Shown here in pieces: positions 259 to 13,273 of a stretch of 32,571 bases of DNA. The notes under the pieces were generated by a model. It searched no databases. It was not told the origin of the DNA and saw only the letters and a list, made by a program, of their open reading frames with translations. The DNA is from Candidatus Aridivita willemsiae (lineage in GTDB: Bacteria; Actinomycetota; CADDZG01; WHSQ01): contig JACCZU010000161.1 in NCBI GenBank assembly GCA_013695835.1, positions 1-32,571 on the forward strand, given 5' to 3'. Numbering within the stretch: the first letter of the stretch is position 1; each line of letters opens with the position of its first letter. A program made the translations under genes and the position numbers.

Positions 259-1511
259 GTGACTGGGGGGACGATGTCCTGGATCGGCAAGAAGACCGTC
301 GCCTTCTTTCCGGTAGTTCGCCCCCGCATGGACGCTCTGCCACCTGACTGGGCCGCTCAGATCGAACGCAGGGTCTACTTTGACCCCGACTCCAAGGGCG
401 CTGATGTGTCCCTTCGGACTTACATCCACACCACGTCGTACGGACGGGCGGATCTCGAAGGGGTCGTTCTTCCCATCGTCGAAAAGGATCAGATCGACGT
501 CCGCGTCGACGCGCTCTCTGATCGGACCGATTCGCTGCGCGACCAGGGTTTCGACGCTGCGGCGATCGTCATGCTGGGCGGGCCTGGGGCAGGCTCGGCC
601 GATTGTCCAGGATTCTGGGCGCGCTTCGTGATGCTCGAGAAGGTGGGGGTTTGGGCATGGAGTTGACTCATGCCCTCGCCGGCTACGGTGACCTCTACGC
701 CAACCCGAGGGGCCCCGTAACCGATCACCTCGCTGTCTTCGACAACATGGCTTGCGATTGCGGTACCCATCCGTCGGCGTTCACCAAGCGGGCTCTCGGG
801 TGGCTCGACCCAGCGGCTGTTACTCAGCACAAGGGGAGGCGCTCCCTGTACGGTCTGCACACCGTGGGGCTTGTGCAGCCGCCTCCCGAAGGAAGAAGTA
901 CGGCAGTGCAGGTCGGCGACGACGGCAACTCCTTCATGGTCGAGGCGCGGCAGATGGTCGACCCATTCGACGCGGGCATCGCACGCAAAAATGGCAAGGG
1001 TGGCGAGGGTGTGATCGTGTACGAGGTGGAGACGCCGGACATCAATCGCGACGCGAGTTGCGTTTCTCCGCTGATACACCTGAAAACGCCGGCCGCGCTC
1101 GCGCCGGGCACTACATTCGCGTCGGGCACCGGACTCATCGTGCAGGTGATCAGCGCGCTCCCCGGCGGATACTCCGTCATCATCGATGACACGACACTGC
1201 CGTGGACCAGTGTCTCCGAGGGCGCAAGCACCCCCGGCGCCCCGGTCTCAGCCGTCGTCACCGGCGAGGATCGCGTTGCACTGTTCCTTGCCGATCCCAA
1301 TGGCGGGATCTACACAACCTCGGGCAGCGCCGCCGCCGGCTGGGAGCCGTGGTCGAGTGTCTCAGAGGGCGCAAGCACCCCCGGCGCCCCGGTCTCAGCC
1401 GTCGTCACCGACGAGGACCGCGTCCCGCTGTTCCTTGCCGATCCCAACGGCGGGATCTATACAACCACGAAGTTCCAGCTCCATCAGGGCGACTTTGATT
1501 CCGGGAGCTAG
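259..1511 (+). pseudogene. M6-like (HExxH) metalloprotease, frameshifted at the active-site motif
   Basis: Two overlapping plus frames together make one protein. The first (GTG 259 or ATG 274 to the TGA at 664-666) carries an SLRTYIHTTSYGRADLEG-type segment and ends VGVWAWS-stop. The second frame, open to TAG at 1509-1511, continues with ELTHALAGYGDLY, a HPSAFTKRALGWLDP segment and two C-terminal repeats. In M6-like peptidases the text should read WA-HELTH; here the join falls exactly at 650-665, where one base appears lost and the first zinc-binding His of HExxH is replaced by Met in the downstream frame. No signal peptide is seen at the N-terminus, so the 5' end may also be incomplete. The C-terminal repeats look like a carbohydrate-binding or propeller-type module. 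A real mutation, a sequencing error or, less likely, programmed frameshifting could explain it. Confidence 0.6.
1203..1470 (+). repeat. Two tandem 147-bp (49-codon) repeats in the protease C-terminus
   Basis: Units begin at 1203 and 1350 and are almost identical for about 115 bases (protein text W-x-SVSEGASTPGAPVSAVVT-xED-RV-x-LFLADPNGGIYTT). The spacing of 147 keeps the reading frame. The aromatic start and the LFLADPNGGIYT core resemble blades of lectin-like beta-propellers (tectonin/PLL or DUF346 type). Only two blades are present, fewer than a closed propeller needs, so the module may be truncated or oligomerise. The near-identity at DNA level suggests a recent duplication. Confidence 0.7.
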
Positions 1512-3277: not shown

Positions 3278-3283
3278 GGCACT

Positions 3284-3290
3284 TACACTA
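3284..3290. promoter_or_regulatory. Shared, nearly palindromic -10 element between divergent genes
   Basis: Only 22 bp separate the divergent start codons at 3277 (minus) and 3300 (plus). The sequence TACACTA reads TAGTGTA on the other strand. It therefore supplies TAGTGT 7 nt before the minus GTG (leaderless spacing) and TACACT 10 nt before the plus ATG (leader of about 4 nt). This matches the published idea that symmetric -10 boxes drive transcription in both directions. Inferred from sequence only. Confidence 0.4.
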
Positions 3291-3299
3291 CAGACGCCG

Positions 3300-4727
3300 A
3301 TGGCAAACGATCGCAGGAAAGACCCCCTCCCGACCGGGCTCGTGCAGCGCAGCGCCAGGCTTGCGGGCCAGACGGGCAAGTCGGCAGCCCGTTTCGTCGG
3401 GACCCGCATGAAGGCCTTCGCATCGCCGGATCGAGCGCAGGAGTACCTCGACGACTTTCACGAGCAGACTGCCGAGCAGCTCGTCGACATGCTCGGCAAC
3501 ATGAAGGGCGCTGCGATGAAGGTCGGGCAACTTGCTTCCTTCTATGAGCTTGCAGGGCCGGACGAAACCATGTCGACATATCGCGAGAAGCTCACGATGC
3601 TTCAGAGCTCGGCCCCCGCGATGGAACCTGAGGCTTCGCGCAAGGTCATCGAGGACGAGTTCGGGCGCCCGGTCGAGGCTGTGTTCGCCGACTTCGAAGA
3701 GGAGCCGGTGGCGGCGGCTTCAATCGGACAGGTGCACAGGGCACGGCTTCTGTCTGGTGAGACGGTGGCCGTCAAGGTGCAGTATCCGGGCGTCGATCAG
3801 GCGATTCGCAGTGATCTCAAAAACCTCTCGGCGATGATGAAGGTGTCGGTCGCGATGGCACCCAATCTCGATCCCAAAGAGGTGGCCAACGAAGTGCGCG
3901 ATCGCGTTCTCGAAGAGCTCGACTATCGCAGAGAGGCGCGCAACCAGCAGCGCTTCTCCGAGCTCTACGAGGGCCATCCCTTCGTGGTCGTCCCCAAGGT
4001 CTTCCCCGAGTACTGCCGGCGGCGGGTCATCACTCAGGAGTTCATCGTGGGCCGGCCCTTTCAGGAGGCCATGGGCTGGTCGCAGGCGAAGAAGGATCAG
4101 CTTGCCGAGATCTTCTTTCGCTTCTTCTACGGGAGCTTCAACCGATTCAACATCTTTTCCGCCGACCCGCATCCCGGCAACTATCTGCTGCTCGAGCGCG
4201 GGAAGGTCGCGTTCCTCGATTACGGCCTGGTGCGAGAGGTCGATGCCCAGTCTCTGCACCTCCTCCACGAGATTGTCTTTGCGTTGATCGACGACGACAG
4301 GGACAGGTGCAGGAGGGCCCTCGAGGGCATAGGCATCCTCAACCCGAGAACTCCCGAGATAGACGCCATCTGGGAGCATCTCAAGACCATCAACATCCTT
4401 GTGCTCGAGAACAAGCCGCTAACGGTCGACCCGACTCTCGTCCAGAGCATGACGGCGGCAGGCGTTGATCCTCGCTCAAGCGCCTTTCAGACGTTGCGCA
4501 AGGTCGGCGTCCCCGGCGTGGTTGTCACTCTCAACCGGATGTCTTTCGGTGTGGTGTCGCTCCTTGGGCGCCTCGAGGCGACGGCTAACTGGCAGGCGAT
4601 GGCGCGCGAGCTGTGGCTTGGTGATCCGTCGGACACCGAACTCGGTAAGCGGGAGGAGCGCTGGCTGGCAAGGTTCCACCCGGAGCTCGCAGAGTCGCTC
4701 GCCATGAGACGCCGCACAGCCTCATAG
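3300..4727 (+). CDS. AarF/ABC1/UbiB family atypical kinase
   Basis: 475 residues. The family's diagnostic pieces are in order: KxGQ motif KVGQ at 74-77, Ala-rich nucleotide loop VAAASIGQVHRA at about 137-148, the ATP-binding lysine in VAVKVQYPG (Lys159), a DPHPGNYLL catalytic-loop equivalent and an FLDYGLV metal-binding Asp. No transmembrane helix is obvious. Homologues (UbiB, COQ8) are ATPases or kinases that help quinone and other lipid metabolism; in actinobacteria, which usually make menaquinone, the exact role is unknown. It is divergent from the M28 lipoprotein gene with 22 bp between starts and has no clear Shine-Dalgarno site. Its 3' end abuts a truncated toxin gene on the other strand, so the final residues could have been altered by the same rearrangement. 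Confidence 0.88.
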   Translation: MANDRRKDPLPTGLVQRSARLAGQTGKSAARFVGTRMKAFASPDRAQEYLDDFHEQTAEQLVDMLGNMKGAAMKVGQLASFYELAGPDETMSTYREKLTMLQSSAPAMEPEASRKVIEDEFGRPVEAVFADFEEEPVAAASIGQVHRARLLSGETVAVKVQYPGVDQAIRSDLKNLSAMMKVSVAMAPNLDPKEVANEVRDRVLEELDYRREARNQQRFSELYEGHPFVVVPKVFPEYCRRRVITQEFIVGRPFQEAMGWSQAKKDQLAEIFFRFFYGSFNRFNIFSADPHPGNYLLLERGKVAFLDYGLVREVDAQSLHLLHEIVFALIDDDRDRCRRALEGIGILNPRTPEIDAIWEHLKTINILVLENKPLTVDPTLVQSMTAAGVDPRSSAFQTLRKVGVPGVVVTLNRMSFGVVSLLGRLEATANWQAMARELWLGDPSDTELGKREERWLARFHPELAESLAMRRRTAS

Positions 4728-9335: not shown

Positions 9336-10673
9336 TTACGTCCGGTCGTGGTCCGGCGCTCGTTGATGGCCAAGGGCCAACACCGCGGCCCCGATCAATC
9401 CTGCGGCCAAAGACGCGAACAAGACCCCGACCTTGGCTTCAGCAACGAGCCGGCCATCATCAAACGCGAGCGACCCCACGAAGAGAGAAACCGTGAAACC
9501 GATGCCTGCGACGATGGACGCTCCCACAACGTGCCGCCATTGCACCCCATCGGGAAGACGTCCAAGTCCCAATCTCACAGACAGCCACGTAGCACCCGAG
9601 ATGCCGACGGTCTTGCCCACAATGAGTCCGGCCACGACCCCAACCGCTACGTTCGAACTCAGGGCATCGCCGATGCTGCCTAGGCTCAAGGCAACGCCGG
9701 CATTCGCAAGGGCGAACAGCGGGATCACCAAGTAGCTCGTCCACGGATGGAGAAGGTGCTCGAGTCGCTCGGCCACCGACACAACCTCATTCGATTGCAA
9801 CTGCACCGCTCTGAGACTCTCTGCATCCGGCTCGACCGCCAATGCACTTGTCTCGTCGAGCACATCTGCGAACCCTCGGGGGTCTGTTGGGCGCGCTGGG
9901 GTGAGCAGTCCCAGAGCAGCCCCCGCGATCGTGGCGTGAGCACCGGACTCGAACGTCGCCACCCAGACCCCAACCCCGATGAGCGCGTAGATAGGGGTCC
10001 AGTAGACCCTCAGCCTGCGAAGAAGGATGACCGCGGTCAGAAGACCAGCCGCAGCGAGCAGCCAGCCGACCTCGATGCCGGCGGAGTAGAACAAAGCGAT
10101 AACCAAGATCACTCCGATGTCATCGACGATCGCGAGGCTCAGGAGAAAGACCTTGAGACCCGAAGGGATCCGATTGGACAACAGCGCCAGCACCGCGACC
10201 GCGAAGGCGATGTCTGTCGCCATCGGGATGCCCCACCCGGCGACTCCAGCGCTGCCTGCGTTGAACATGACGTAAACGAGAGCGGGAGCCATCATCCCCC
10301 CGATCGCGGCGGCTACCGGAATCATCGCTTTCCGCACATCATTCAGCTCTCCCAATACGAGCTCACGCTTGATCTCCAGACCGACCACGAAGAAGAAGAG
10401 CGCCATCAAGCCGTCGTTGATCCAATGCCGAATGTCCTGGGCGAGCTCCAGGCTTCCGAGGGCAAACCGCAGCTCCGTTCGCCATAGTGATTCGTAGGAG
10501 TTGGCGAAGGGCGAGTTCGCCCACACAAGCGCCGCCACAGTCGCACCAAGAAGAACGATCCCACCAGCCGCTTCTGTCCTGAGGAACGTCCGCAGCGGGC
10601 GAGCTATCAGACGGGGCAAGACGCGGTCACTCGACAGCCACGAGTTCCGAAGTGGGGACTTTGGGGGCGACAT
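9336..10673 (-). CDS. nhaA: Na+/H+ antiporter NhaA
   Basis: 445 residues from the ATG at 10673, chosen because CCAGGAG sits just upstream; the open frame reaches 10754 but through the structured leader. It exchanges sodium (or lithium) for protons across the cytoplasmic membrane. There are about eleven or twelve hydrophobic segments. The ion-site aspartates are present: Asp184-Asp185 in AIVDDIGVI (equivalent to E. coli 163/164) and Asp154 in MATDIAFA (E. coli 133); a VGKTVGI segment carries the conserved lysine. The hydrophilic stretch around TDPRGFADVLDE is a typical inserted loop. It is convergent with the FGGY kinase (128 bp gap in which I see no other gene) and downstream of asnB on the same strand. 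Confidence 0.95.
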   Translation of the reverse strand: MSPPKSPLRNSWLSSDRVLPRLIARPLRTFLRTEAAGGIVLLGATVAALVWANSPFANSYESLWRTELRFALGSLELAQDIRHWINDGLMALFFFVVGLEIKRELVLGELNDVRKAMIPVAAAIGGMMAPALVYVMFNAGSAGVAGWGIPMATDIAFAVAVLALLSNRIPSGLKVFLLSLAIVDDIGVILVIALFYSAGIEVGWLLAAAGLLTAVILLRRLRVYWTPIYALIGVGVWVATFESGAHATIAGAALGLLTPARPTDPRGFADVLDETSALAVEPDAESLRAVQLQSNEVVSVAERLEHLLHPWTSYLVIPLFALANAGVALSLGSIGDALSSNVAVGVVAGLIVGKTVGISGATWLSVRLGLGRLPDGVQWRHVVGASIVAGIGFTVSLFVGSLAFDDGRLVAEAKVGVLFASLAAGLIGAAVLALGHQRAPDHDRT

Positions 10674-10785
10674 CACATCTCCTGGTCCGCGCCGATACAA
10701 TCGCCGACCAGGCTTCCCGGCACACCTGACATCAGGATAGACGAGTCGGAGCAATCAGGCTTCGTGCCTCGGAAAGTCGGTGCTC
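10674..10785 (-). promoter_or_regulatory. Structured nhaA leader, candidate cation-responsive riboswitch
   Basis: On the minus strand the nhaA 5' leader can fold in several ways. A perfect 7-bp stem pairs CCTGGTC (10706-10712) with GACCAGG (10681-10687), an 18-nt loop apart, and the second arm contains most of the ribosome binding site. The CCTG of the first arm could instead pair with CAGG at 10725-10728, freeing the site. Further upstream GAGCA (10781-10785) pairs with TGCTC (10749-10753), enclosing a small AGGC/GCCT hairpin (10757-10769). Mutually exclusive stems around the ribosome binding site are the layout of a translational riboswitch. Bacterial nhaA genes are known to be controlled by lithium/sodium-sensing RNA classes, but I cannot match this leader to a named class. 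Confidence 0.45.
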
Positions 10786-10833: not shown

Positions 10834-12351
10834 TTAGGAGAAAGCTGGGCGCTCCGACCAGCGGCCCATGTTGGCGAGCACGGGCTCGGGGTTGTCGTAG
10901 GCGTCGACGAGGAGACGGTGATAGAAGCCCTCCTCGGACGAGCGCAACCCGGCCCCTTTGTGGCGTTGACGGTAGTCCCTGAGCTCGCCGGCGCCGGAGC
11001 TCAACCCGGACACCCCGGCCAGGAGATCCACGGTTCCGCTTCCTTCGTCGAACTGCTCCTTGTCGCGCCACACTATGGCGTGGGGGAGCAGGTCCTCGAA
11101 CGCCTGGCGGAGTATCCACTTCCCTTGCGGGTAGTCCTTGGAGAGCTTGAGCTCGGCGGGGACCTTGCGCCCAAGCTCGACCGCCTCGAGATCGAGGAAG
11201 GGCACCCGGCCCTCGATCGAGTGCGCCATCGTCATGCGATCCACGCGCTGAAGGTTGATGTTGTGCAGAGAGCTAACCGAACGGTACAGCTCTTCTTGGA
11301 GCGTGGCCTCGCTTGGGATGCCCTTGTAATAGTCGTACCCGGCGAAGATCTCGTCCGCCCCTTCGCCCGTGAGCACGACCTTGACATGCTCGGCGGCAAG
11401 CCGGGAGGTGAAATAGCACGGGATGGCTGAGCGAACGAGATCTTGATCGAATGACTCGAGGTAGTAGATGATCTCGGGCAGGCAGGCCGCAACCTCGTCT
11501 GGAGTCATCACATACTCGTGATGGATGGTGTCGAGATGGCCTGCGACCACGCGTGCCGCTTCGAGGTCGTTGCTGCCCTCGACGCCAACCGCGAATGTGT
11601 GCAACTCATCGAGCTGGCTGCGCGCCAGCGCTGCGATGATGCTGCTGTCAAGTCCTCCGGACAGAAACGCCCCGACTGGAACGTCGCTCATGAGGTGTTT
11701 GATCACCACCCGCTCGATGGTTTCGCGAACCATTGCCACATAATCGGCGATGGTGCGGCCCTCGGCGTGCTTGGGCGCCGTCGCGCTCGCAAGCGAGTGG
11801 AAGGACGAGAGCCCACTCGCGGAGTCCCACACGTGGCCGGGTGGGAATTCCCTGACCTGGTCGGCCCGCGGGTCGAATGCCTTCAGCTCGGAGGCAAACA
11901 CGGTCGCATCGCCTAGCCGGCCGAGATAGAGGGGTTTGATGCCGATTGGGTCTCTCGCCACAATCAGTCTGTCCTCATCGGCAATGGCGAAGGAGTACAT
12001 GCCCTCGAGATGCCGTCCCAGGTTCGGCCCGTGCTCCTCGAAGAGGTGAAGGATGGCCTCGTTGTCGCTGCTGGTCGAGAATCCGTGGCACTGGGCAAGC
12101 TCAGGCTGGAGGGCGGGGAAGTTGTAGATCTCTCCGTTGGCCACGACCGCCCGCTTGGAGTCGTTGCTGAAGATGGGTTGCGCCCCACCATGCGGGTCCA
12201 CGATGCTGAGCCTGCGATGCCCAAGCGAAGGTGAACCGCCGGGGGCCGAATAAACGGCCTCGTCGTCCGGACCACGATGCGCCAAAGTGTCGATCATGTC
12301 TTGGACTGCGGCACCGCTTACGTCGCCGAATGCCCCCGCTATGCCGCACAA
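10834..12351 (-). CDS. asnB: Asparagine synthase (glutamine-hydrolysing), AsnB
   Basis: 505 residues from a TTG at 12351; this start is required because the catalytic Cys must be residue 2 (MCGIAG). The N-terminal Ntn glutaminase domain (about 1-185) has HRGPD at 26-30, RRLSIVD and NGEIYN at 72-77. The synthetase domain follows, with the PP-loop SGGLDSS at 231-237 and LTGEGADEIFAGYDYY. It makes asparagine from aspartate, glutamine and ATP in the cytoplasm. Length and motif order are those of bacterial AsnB. It lies behind the nitrilase-family gene with an 82-bp gap that contains a Rho-independent terminator only 33 nt before the start, so its expression may depend on read-through or a promoter inside the gap. 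Confidence 0.93.
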   Translation of the reverse strand: MCGIAGAFGDVSGAAVQDMIDTLAHRGPDDEAVYSAPGGSPSLGHRRLSIVDPHGGAQPIFSNDSKRAVVANGEIYNFPALQPELAQCHGFSTSSDNEAILHLFEEHGPNLGRHLEGMYSFAIADEDRLIVARDPIGIKPLYLGRLGDATVFASELKAFDPRADQVREFPPGHVWDSASGLSSFHSLASATAPKHAEGRTIADYVAMVRETIERVVIKHLMSDVPVGAFLSGGLDSSIIAALARSQLDELHTFAVGVEGSNDLEAARVVAGHLDTIHHEYVMTPDEVAACLPEIIYYLESFDQDLVRSAIPCYFTSRLAAEHVKVVLTGEGADEIFAGYDYYKGIPSEATLQEELYRSVSSLHNINLQRVDRMTMAHSIEGRVPFLDLEAVELGRKVPAELKLSKDYPQGKWILRQAFEDLLPHAIVWRDKEQFDEGSGTVDLLAGVSGLSSGAGELRDYRQRHKGAGLRSSEEGFYHRLLVDAYDNPEPVLANMGRWSERPAFS

Positions 12352-12433: not shown

Positions 12434-13273
12434 TTAGAGGTCGCCGCCTTCGTAGATGAGGCGCTCGAGCTCCTTGCGAAGCAGGCCGAGGCGCGCCTCC
12501 TTGATGAGGGGGAGCTGCCATCGCTCGCGCCGCACGCGCGTCATGTCGACATCGACTACAAGCAGGTCTTCCTCATACCTCGGAGATTCTGCGACGACCT
12601 CTCCGGAGGGATCAACGACATGCGAGCCGCCCCAGAACGACAGGCCATCTTCGGTCCCCACCCTGTTGGCGAAAACGACGTAGCACTGAAACATCACGGC
12701 GTAGAAGCGCGTTATCTCGCGCCAGTGCCGGTCGAGGTCGGCCATTCCTGGGACCTCGCCCAGGGCGCTGCTTGCCGGTATGATCAAGATCTCGGCGCCG
12801 TCTTGCACACCGACGAAGGGCAGGCTCGGCTGCCAGGCATCGTTGCAGATCAGAAGCGCCATGCGGCCCACGAGGCTGTCGAAGGCCCGCATTGACTGGC
12901 CTGGGCTAAAGTGCTTTCTCTCCTCGAAGACGCCGTAGGTCGGTAGGTAGAGCTTGCGGTGCACCTGTGCAACCCCGCCACCCTCGACGTACGCCGCGCT
13001 GTTGTAGGTCCGTAAGGAGCTGCCCTCGAGGAAGCCGAGCACGCTCGCCATGCCCGAGGTCTCGGCGGCGTAGGTCCGAAAGCGCTGGTCCTCCGGCTCC
13101 ATGTAGACGTGGTGGCCGATGCGCCCGAGCGAATAGCCGGTGAGGCTGAGCTCAGGAAAGACCACAATGGAAGCGCCCCCGGCCCGCGCCTCGAGCGCCA
13201 CCTCGGCGGCCCGGGCGAAGTTCTTGTCGAGCTCGCCGAGGGCAGGGTTGGTCTGAGCTAAAGCGATCTTCAT
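12434..13273 (-). CDS. Carbon-nitrogen hydrolase (nitrilase superfamily)
   Basis: 279 residues. The Glu-Lys-Cys triad is clear: Glu41 (VVFPELSLTGY), Lys107 (VHRKLYLPTYGVFEE) and Cys143 (LLICNDAWQP). The sandwich fold hydrolyses amides or carbamoyl groups, releasing ammonia; the HRKLYLPTYGVFEE text resembles the N-carbamoyl/amidase branch and the glutaminase domains of NAD synthetases rather than true nitrilases. The C-terminal tail is highly charged. It starts 200 bp from the divergent DmdA-like gene, with the GGCAAC operator in that gap, and precedes asnB. A link to ammonia or amide metabolism is plausible; the substrate is not known. Confidence 0.85.
   Translation of the reverse strand: MKIALAQTNPALGELDKNFARAAEVALEARAGGASIVVFPELSLTGYSLGRIGHHVYMEPEDQRFRTYAAETSGMASVLGFLEGSSLRTYNSAAYVEGGGVAQVHRKLYLPTYGVFEERKHFSPGQSMRAFDSLVGRMALLICNDAWQPSLPFVGVQDGAEILIIPASSALGEVPGMADLDRHWREITRFYAVMFQCYVVFANRVGTEDGLSFWGGSHVVDPSGEVVAESPRYEEDLLVVDVDMTRVRRERWQLPLIKEARLGLLRKELERLIYEGGDL

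Follow-up and report, generated by a model that had tools for sequence, protein, structure and literature searches.

Organization of the nhaA locus

The window, the whole stretch of 32,571 nucleotides analysed here, carries on its minus strand a gene whose product is NhaA according to its match to TIGR00773 (NCBIfam; 404.8 bits, 3.4e-121). Translation of nhaA starts at an ATG at 10673. The genes asnB (10834-12351) and one for a probable carbon-nitrogen hydrolase (12434-13273) also lie on the minus strand, 5' of nhaA. No asnB was found near nhaA in the related nhaA loci that we fetched, indicating that the neighbourhood is not conserved and that nhaA has its own promoter. The elements of the locus are listed below; positions within the conserved block are counted from the first base of helix P1, at 10721.

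9336..10673, minus strand: nhaA coding sequence, Na+/H+ antiporter of 445 aa, the putatively regulated gene (open reading frame and NCBIfam TIGR00773)
10679..10683, minus strand: Shine-Dalgarno sequence AGGAG of nhaA (sequence)
10681..10687, minus strand: GACCAGG, which pairs with the anti-Shine-Dalgarno strand and overlaps the Shine-Dalgarno sequence (folding and leader alignment)
10702..10726, minus strand: conserved block GGUGU-GCCGGGAAGCCUGGUCGGC-G, proposed aptamer (covariance model and 174 instances)
10703..10706, minus strand: 3' strand of P1, CGGC, its first base shared with the anti-Shine-Dalgarno helix (compensatory changes)
10706..10712, minus strand: anti-Shine-Dalgarno strand CCUGGUC, block positions 10-16 (excess complementarity to the downstream leader)
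10718..10721, minus strand: 5' strand of P1, GCCG (compensatory changes in homologues)
10722, minus strand: U, 5' member of the wobble pair capping P1, its partner being G at 10702 (U.G/C.A covariation)
10726..10727, minus strand: predicted transcription start, at the conserved GG or one base before it (spacing from the -10 box)
10734..10739, minus strand: -10-like hexamer TATCCT, beginning 18 nt before block position 1 (sequence and spacing in homologues)

An earlier note on this DNA described a perfect 7-bp stem over the Shine-Dalgarno sequence of nhaA, an alternative pairing that would free it, and an enclosed stem-loop further upstream. The stem is exact: CCUGGUC (10712-10706) pairs with GACCAGG (10687-10681), which includes the AGG of the Shine-Dalgarno sequence, and the pairing is present in the minimum free-energy structure of the leader. 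The alternative pairing was found as well, GCCG at 10721-10718 with CGGC at 10706-10703, here denoted P1. Folding of the single leader gave a z of -0.54 against shuffled sequences, 53 of 200 shuffles folding equally well, and a longer stretch around the leader gave +0.52. As single-sequence folds stand at the level of chance, the stem is correct but proves nothing alone, and its significance can come only from homologous leaders.

A conserved block of 25 nucleotides in leaders of Actinomycetota

The leaders of NhaA homologues in related genomes contain, immediately 5' of the Shine-Dalgarno sequence, a nearly invariant block of 25 nt with the consensus GGNGY-GCCGGGAAGNCUGGUCGGC-R, inside which the upstream arm of the 7-bp stem falls. 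The core pattern of the block was detected in 114 of 397 sampled Actinomycetota genomes, a reversed control pattern being far rarer. A covariance model built on 103 sequences (R1) gave matches in 69 of 247 genomes, and the covariance-model match at the nhaA leader of the window spans 10700-10727 on the minus strand with 45.2 bits. The resulting collection holds 174 distinct instances of the block with complementary P1 strands.

Among the NhaA loci fetched, the motif occurs only in those labelled Actinomycetota. On the plasmids of PLSDB the block was likewise found in actinobacteria only, carriers including Streptomyces, Rhodococcus, Arthrobacter, Pseudonocardia, Kitasatospora, Nocardia and Mycobacterium; none of the viral contigs searched carries it. 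One genome of 9.5 Mb with Streptomyces-like gene content has nine copies, several within a few kb, which precede NhaA, CPA1 and STAS genes. In the locus of the closest nhaA homologue we also noticed a fluoride riboswitch (53.9 bits; 3280-3344, minus strand) and a match to the Ms_AS-4 sRNA (1004-1085, minus strand).

In 142 of the 174 homologous leaders, a -10-like box of the form TAnnnT begins 17-19 nt ahead of block position 1. This fixed spacing suggests that the RNA should begin with the conserved block, with the transcription start of nhaA expected at about block position -6 or -5 (10727 or 10726). The enclosed stem-loop of the earlier note is seen in the fold, but it lies 5' of TATCCT; because it precedes the predicted start, it is probably promoter DNA outside the nhaA transcript. 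An upstream ORF was also considered and rejected as a conserved peptide: about 30% of the leaders have GAG or GCG in place of the GTG at position -4, and the block varies at the middle base of a codon.

P1 and the wobble pair that caps it

P1 joins block positions 1-4 to positions 16-19 and reads GCCG/CGGC in 169 leaders. Compensatory variants are GUCG/CGAC (four leaders) and GCUG/CAGC (one leader), and the strands are non-complementary in 2 of 176 cases. As P1 varies in just 5 of 174 leaders, its covariation is limited. Just outside P1, positions -1 and 20 form U.G in 82 and C.A in 50 of the 174 leaders, with a mutual information z of 21. In NhaA leaders one or the other pair is present in 71 of 95, compared with 39.6 expected after shuffling, and at least 17 independent co-changes between U.G and C.A map to the NhaA tree. 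U.G and C.A wobble pairs are isosteric. A covariation counter for standard pairs treats this position as unpaired and receives no contribution from it. The exchange of U.G for C.A supports an RNA helix and speaks against a DNA dyad; a DNA palindrome was rejected on the same ground, as the covarying flanks are not complementary. The earlier note had named an alignment of homologous nhaA leaders as a check on its folding; the compensatory changes in P1 (five variants) were seen across the collected leaders, and the U.G/C.A co-changes on the NhaA tree.

ViennaRNA disfavours P1 when no ligand is present, at a median cost of 8 kcal/mol and with a P1 probability below 1% in full leaders, and in short transcripts a competing local hairpin, GCCGGG-AAG-YCUGGU, is favoured over P1. 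P1 as the free-energy minimum is therefore unsupported. Being unfavourable in the nearest-neighbour model, P1 would have to be paid for by a ligand or by tertiary contacts of the invariant loop.

Complementarity of the block to the Shine-Dalgarno region

The part of the block from position 10 to 18 or 19 (NCUGGUCGG) shows more complementarity to the leader 3' of it than expected, with a mean z of -0.99 against dinucleotide shuffles and of -0.08 and +0.12 in the controls. A helix of at least 6 with the downstream leader is found in 51% of leaders versus 22% in the reversed control (p ~1e-15, a value that ignores shared ancestry), and about half of the leaders are without a strong contiguous anti-Shine-Dalgarno helix. 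In five leaders aligned together this helix reaches 11 bp and contains a compensated A-U. The partner sequences are enriched in leaders over coding sequence, CCGACC by 4.4-fold and GACCAG by 5-fold, with GACCCC within the same four- to five-fold range. As the enriched partners pair with block positions 13-18, and as the first base of the 3' strand of P1 belongs also to the anti-Shine-Dalgarno helix, the two helices compete. A pseudoknot in which positions 10-15 alone would pair with the Shine-Dalgarno region on an intact P1 is possible; enrichment of CCGACC, the complement of positions 13-18, favours the helix that competes with P1.

The block precedes the start codon by a median of 35 nt. Terminators are absent, a terminator-like run of T5 occurring in 1 of the 174 leaders, and a transcription terminator as expression platform was rejected for this reason. 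Together, the short distance to the start codon and the absence of terminators make translational control the natural reading.

Genes preceded by the block

The genes behind the block were recorded in a set of 150 instances that had been collected blind to the gene that follows. The next gene encodes NhaA in 73 cases; 21 instances precede a gene for a CPA1 exchanger (PF00999), and 13 precede one for an Mrp-type or MrpA-like subunit (PF00361, MbhD/MbhE). The others are mostly further cation transporters: a CBS/CitM-NhaD group of about 8 (CBS proteins followed by CitM/ArsB-like transporters), Na/Ca exchangers (PF01699) in 4, ABC ATPases in 3, P-type cation ATPases in 2 and H_PPase in 1. An annotated nhaA follows the block on plasmids of Arthrobacter sp. 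D5-1, Glutamicibacter sp. ZJUTW and Streptomyces goshikiensis, with 57-74 nt between the start of the match and the start of the gene, and on a plasmid of Mycobacterium branderi the next gene encodes an ArsB/NhaD transporter. The common theme of these genes is sodium extrusion. Some genes behind the block (STAS, CRP-like, DUF2254) have no obvious link to sodium, which counts against a sodium riboswitch.

DUF2254 membrane proteins follow two blocks (PF10011 shown for one) and could hint at a sodium-related role of this family. CRP-like regulators also follow two blocks (PF13545 and PF00027 shown for one) and are possible regulators of the salt response. On plasmids of Rhodococcus and Pseudonocardia the first gene after the block encodes an alpha/beta hydrolase; nhaA comes next in R. 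rhodochrous, and genes for a potassium channel and for a cation antiporter in R. qingshengii.

A proposed ion-responsive switch and its alternatives

The nhaA leader is very likely a short cis-regulatory RNA, a member of a large family in Actinomycetota. We consider it somewhat more likely than not, judging from the comparative data, that it is a riboswitch turning translation ON in response to a monovalent cation, Na+ being the most likely ligand and Li+ or pH other candidates. In the proposed mechanism the 25-nt block would form the 5' end of the transcript. As long as no ligand is bound, its positions 10-16 or 10-18 would pair around the Shine-Dalgarno sequence and block ribosome binding. 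At high ion concentration the block would fold into P1 (GCCG/CGGC) with a U.G or C.A+ wobble as its cap, and the nearly invariant loop of 11 nt, GGAAGNCUGGU, would wrap the ion. Formation of P1 would withdraw the anti-Shine-Dalgarno strand, so that the antiporter is translated. Mutual exclusion of P1 and the helix over the Shine-Dalgarno sequence would thus serve as the switch; since the targets are exporters, ion-bound P1 should free the Shine-Dalgarno sequence.

General features of riboswitches are present in these leaders: a conserved, structured 5' leader RNA with covariation (few changes in P1, many wobble co-changes), a consistent association with functionally related genes, and an expression platform that overlaps the aptamer, with a strong contiguous helix in about half of the leaders. 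The suggestion of the earlier note that this could be a new class of translational riboswitch finds good support in the conservation, the gene associations, the covariation and the Shine-Dalgarno complementarity, while the ligand and the switching are predicted.

Li+ or pH in place of Na+ seems to us unlikely. NhaA exports Li+ too, and the known nhaA motifs sense Li+ (PMC9646797), but the targets seen here, which include Mrp, CPA1, the Na/Ca exchanger, NhaD-like transporters, a P-type ATPase and a pyrophosphatase, are broader than those of the Li+ switches, which are mostly nhaA. That nearly all targets are proton antiporters and that the capping pair alternates between U.G and C.A would suit a pH sensor; yet the two pairs swap freely, making protonation of C.A improbable as the sensing event. 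A hairpin so small, nearly invariant and strongly constrained in sequence, with a P1 unstable alone, could also be recognised by an RNA-binding protein that represses or activates translation. We regard this as quite improbable, because conservation across the phylum, mobile targets and carriage on plasmids would demand an equally conserved regulator, and no regulator gene lies consistently nearby.

A DNA operator just 3' of the promoter, to which a transcription factor binds, would account for the fixed distance to the -10 box and for the extreme sequence conservation. It is very improbable: exchange of U.G for C.A would be meaningless in a DNA dyad, the block is complementary to the Shine-Dalgarno region, and it lies always on the coding strand at its typical distance from the start codon. 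The chance values of the single-sequence folds would agree with a fortuitous stem in a GC-rich leader, but all comparative evidence contradicts this explanation, which conservation already refutes and to which we assign practically no weight.

To our knowledge, only a few RNAs sense alkali cations. White et al. 2022 predicted that many more await discovery (PMC9337991). We see the case as evenly balanced that the block defines an undescribed riboswitch class spanning the Actinomycetota, with a predicted Na+-sensing aptamer that takes up about the first 25 nt of the mRNA, a hairpin capped by U.G or C.A, control over most families of Na+ extrusion, and up to nine copies per genome. If true, it would explain how Na+ extrusion is controlled in Streptomyces, Rhodococcus, Nocardia, Arthrobacter and mycobacterial relatives, would be one of the smallest known aptamers, and would offer a test case for how RNA chooses Na+ over K+ and Li+.

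Comparison with known RNA classes

The earlier note had raised the possibility of a divergent member of the lithium- and sodium-sensing nhaA motifs, a view that the covariance-model searches did not sustain. Rfam 15 yielded no match for the nhaA leader or for homologous leaders with either gathering or lenient thresholds. RF03057 (nhaA-I) had none at the leader (E<=10), and neither had RF03038 (nhaA-II) nor RF03071 (Na+-I); their best scores in the genome lie elsewhere, at 17.5, 17.8 and 12.6 bits against gathering thresholds of 37, 70.4 and 40.5, respectively. Matches to Scr2736 and leuA-Halobacteria were weak, far below their own cut-offs, and were dismissed. An Rfam search of 20 non-actinobacterial nhaA loci, meant as a positive control, returned no known nhaA motif and so carries no weight in either direction. 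The STAS loci that carry the block gave no Rfam match. In the open-access full-text literature we found no description of the block sequence or of an actinobacterial nhaA riboswitch. The element thus lies outside every catalogued class tested, and appears to work like a translational ion riboswitch.

The dauA motif of Streptomyces (PMC11109978) resembles the present element as a candidate leader RNA that touches the Shine-Dalgarno sequence; it precedes STAS genes, a minor target of the present element. Described as a junction of three stems in 57 leaders of Streptomyces (PMC11109978), it appears to differ from the present element.

The Li+-I, Li+-II and Na+-I classes were described by White et al. 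2022 (PMC9646797, PMC9337991). The Li+-I riboswitch (nhaA-I motif, RF03057; PMC9646797) shares with the present element the nhaA leader and a proposed ion-responsive ON control of an exporter, but its model has 55 positions, whereas the present element has a single 4-bp hairpin and another conserved core. The Li+-II riboswitch (nhaA-II motif, RF03038; PMC9646797) also occupies nhaA leaders and differs in its model of 84 positions, to which there is no similarity. With the Na+-I riboswitch (DUF1646 motif, RF03071; PMC9337991) and its relative Na+-II, the present element shares a broad range of sodium-transport targets. There, the bound ligand keeps an alternative stem from forming and expression is turned on (PMC9337991), as predicted for the present element; the published Na+-I example acts through a terminator (PMC9337991), whereas the platform here is likely the Shine-Dalgarno sequence.
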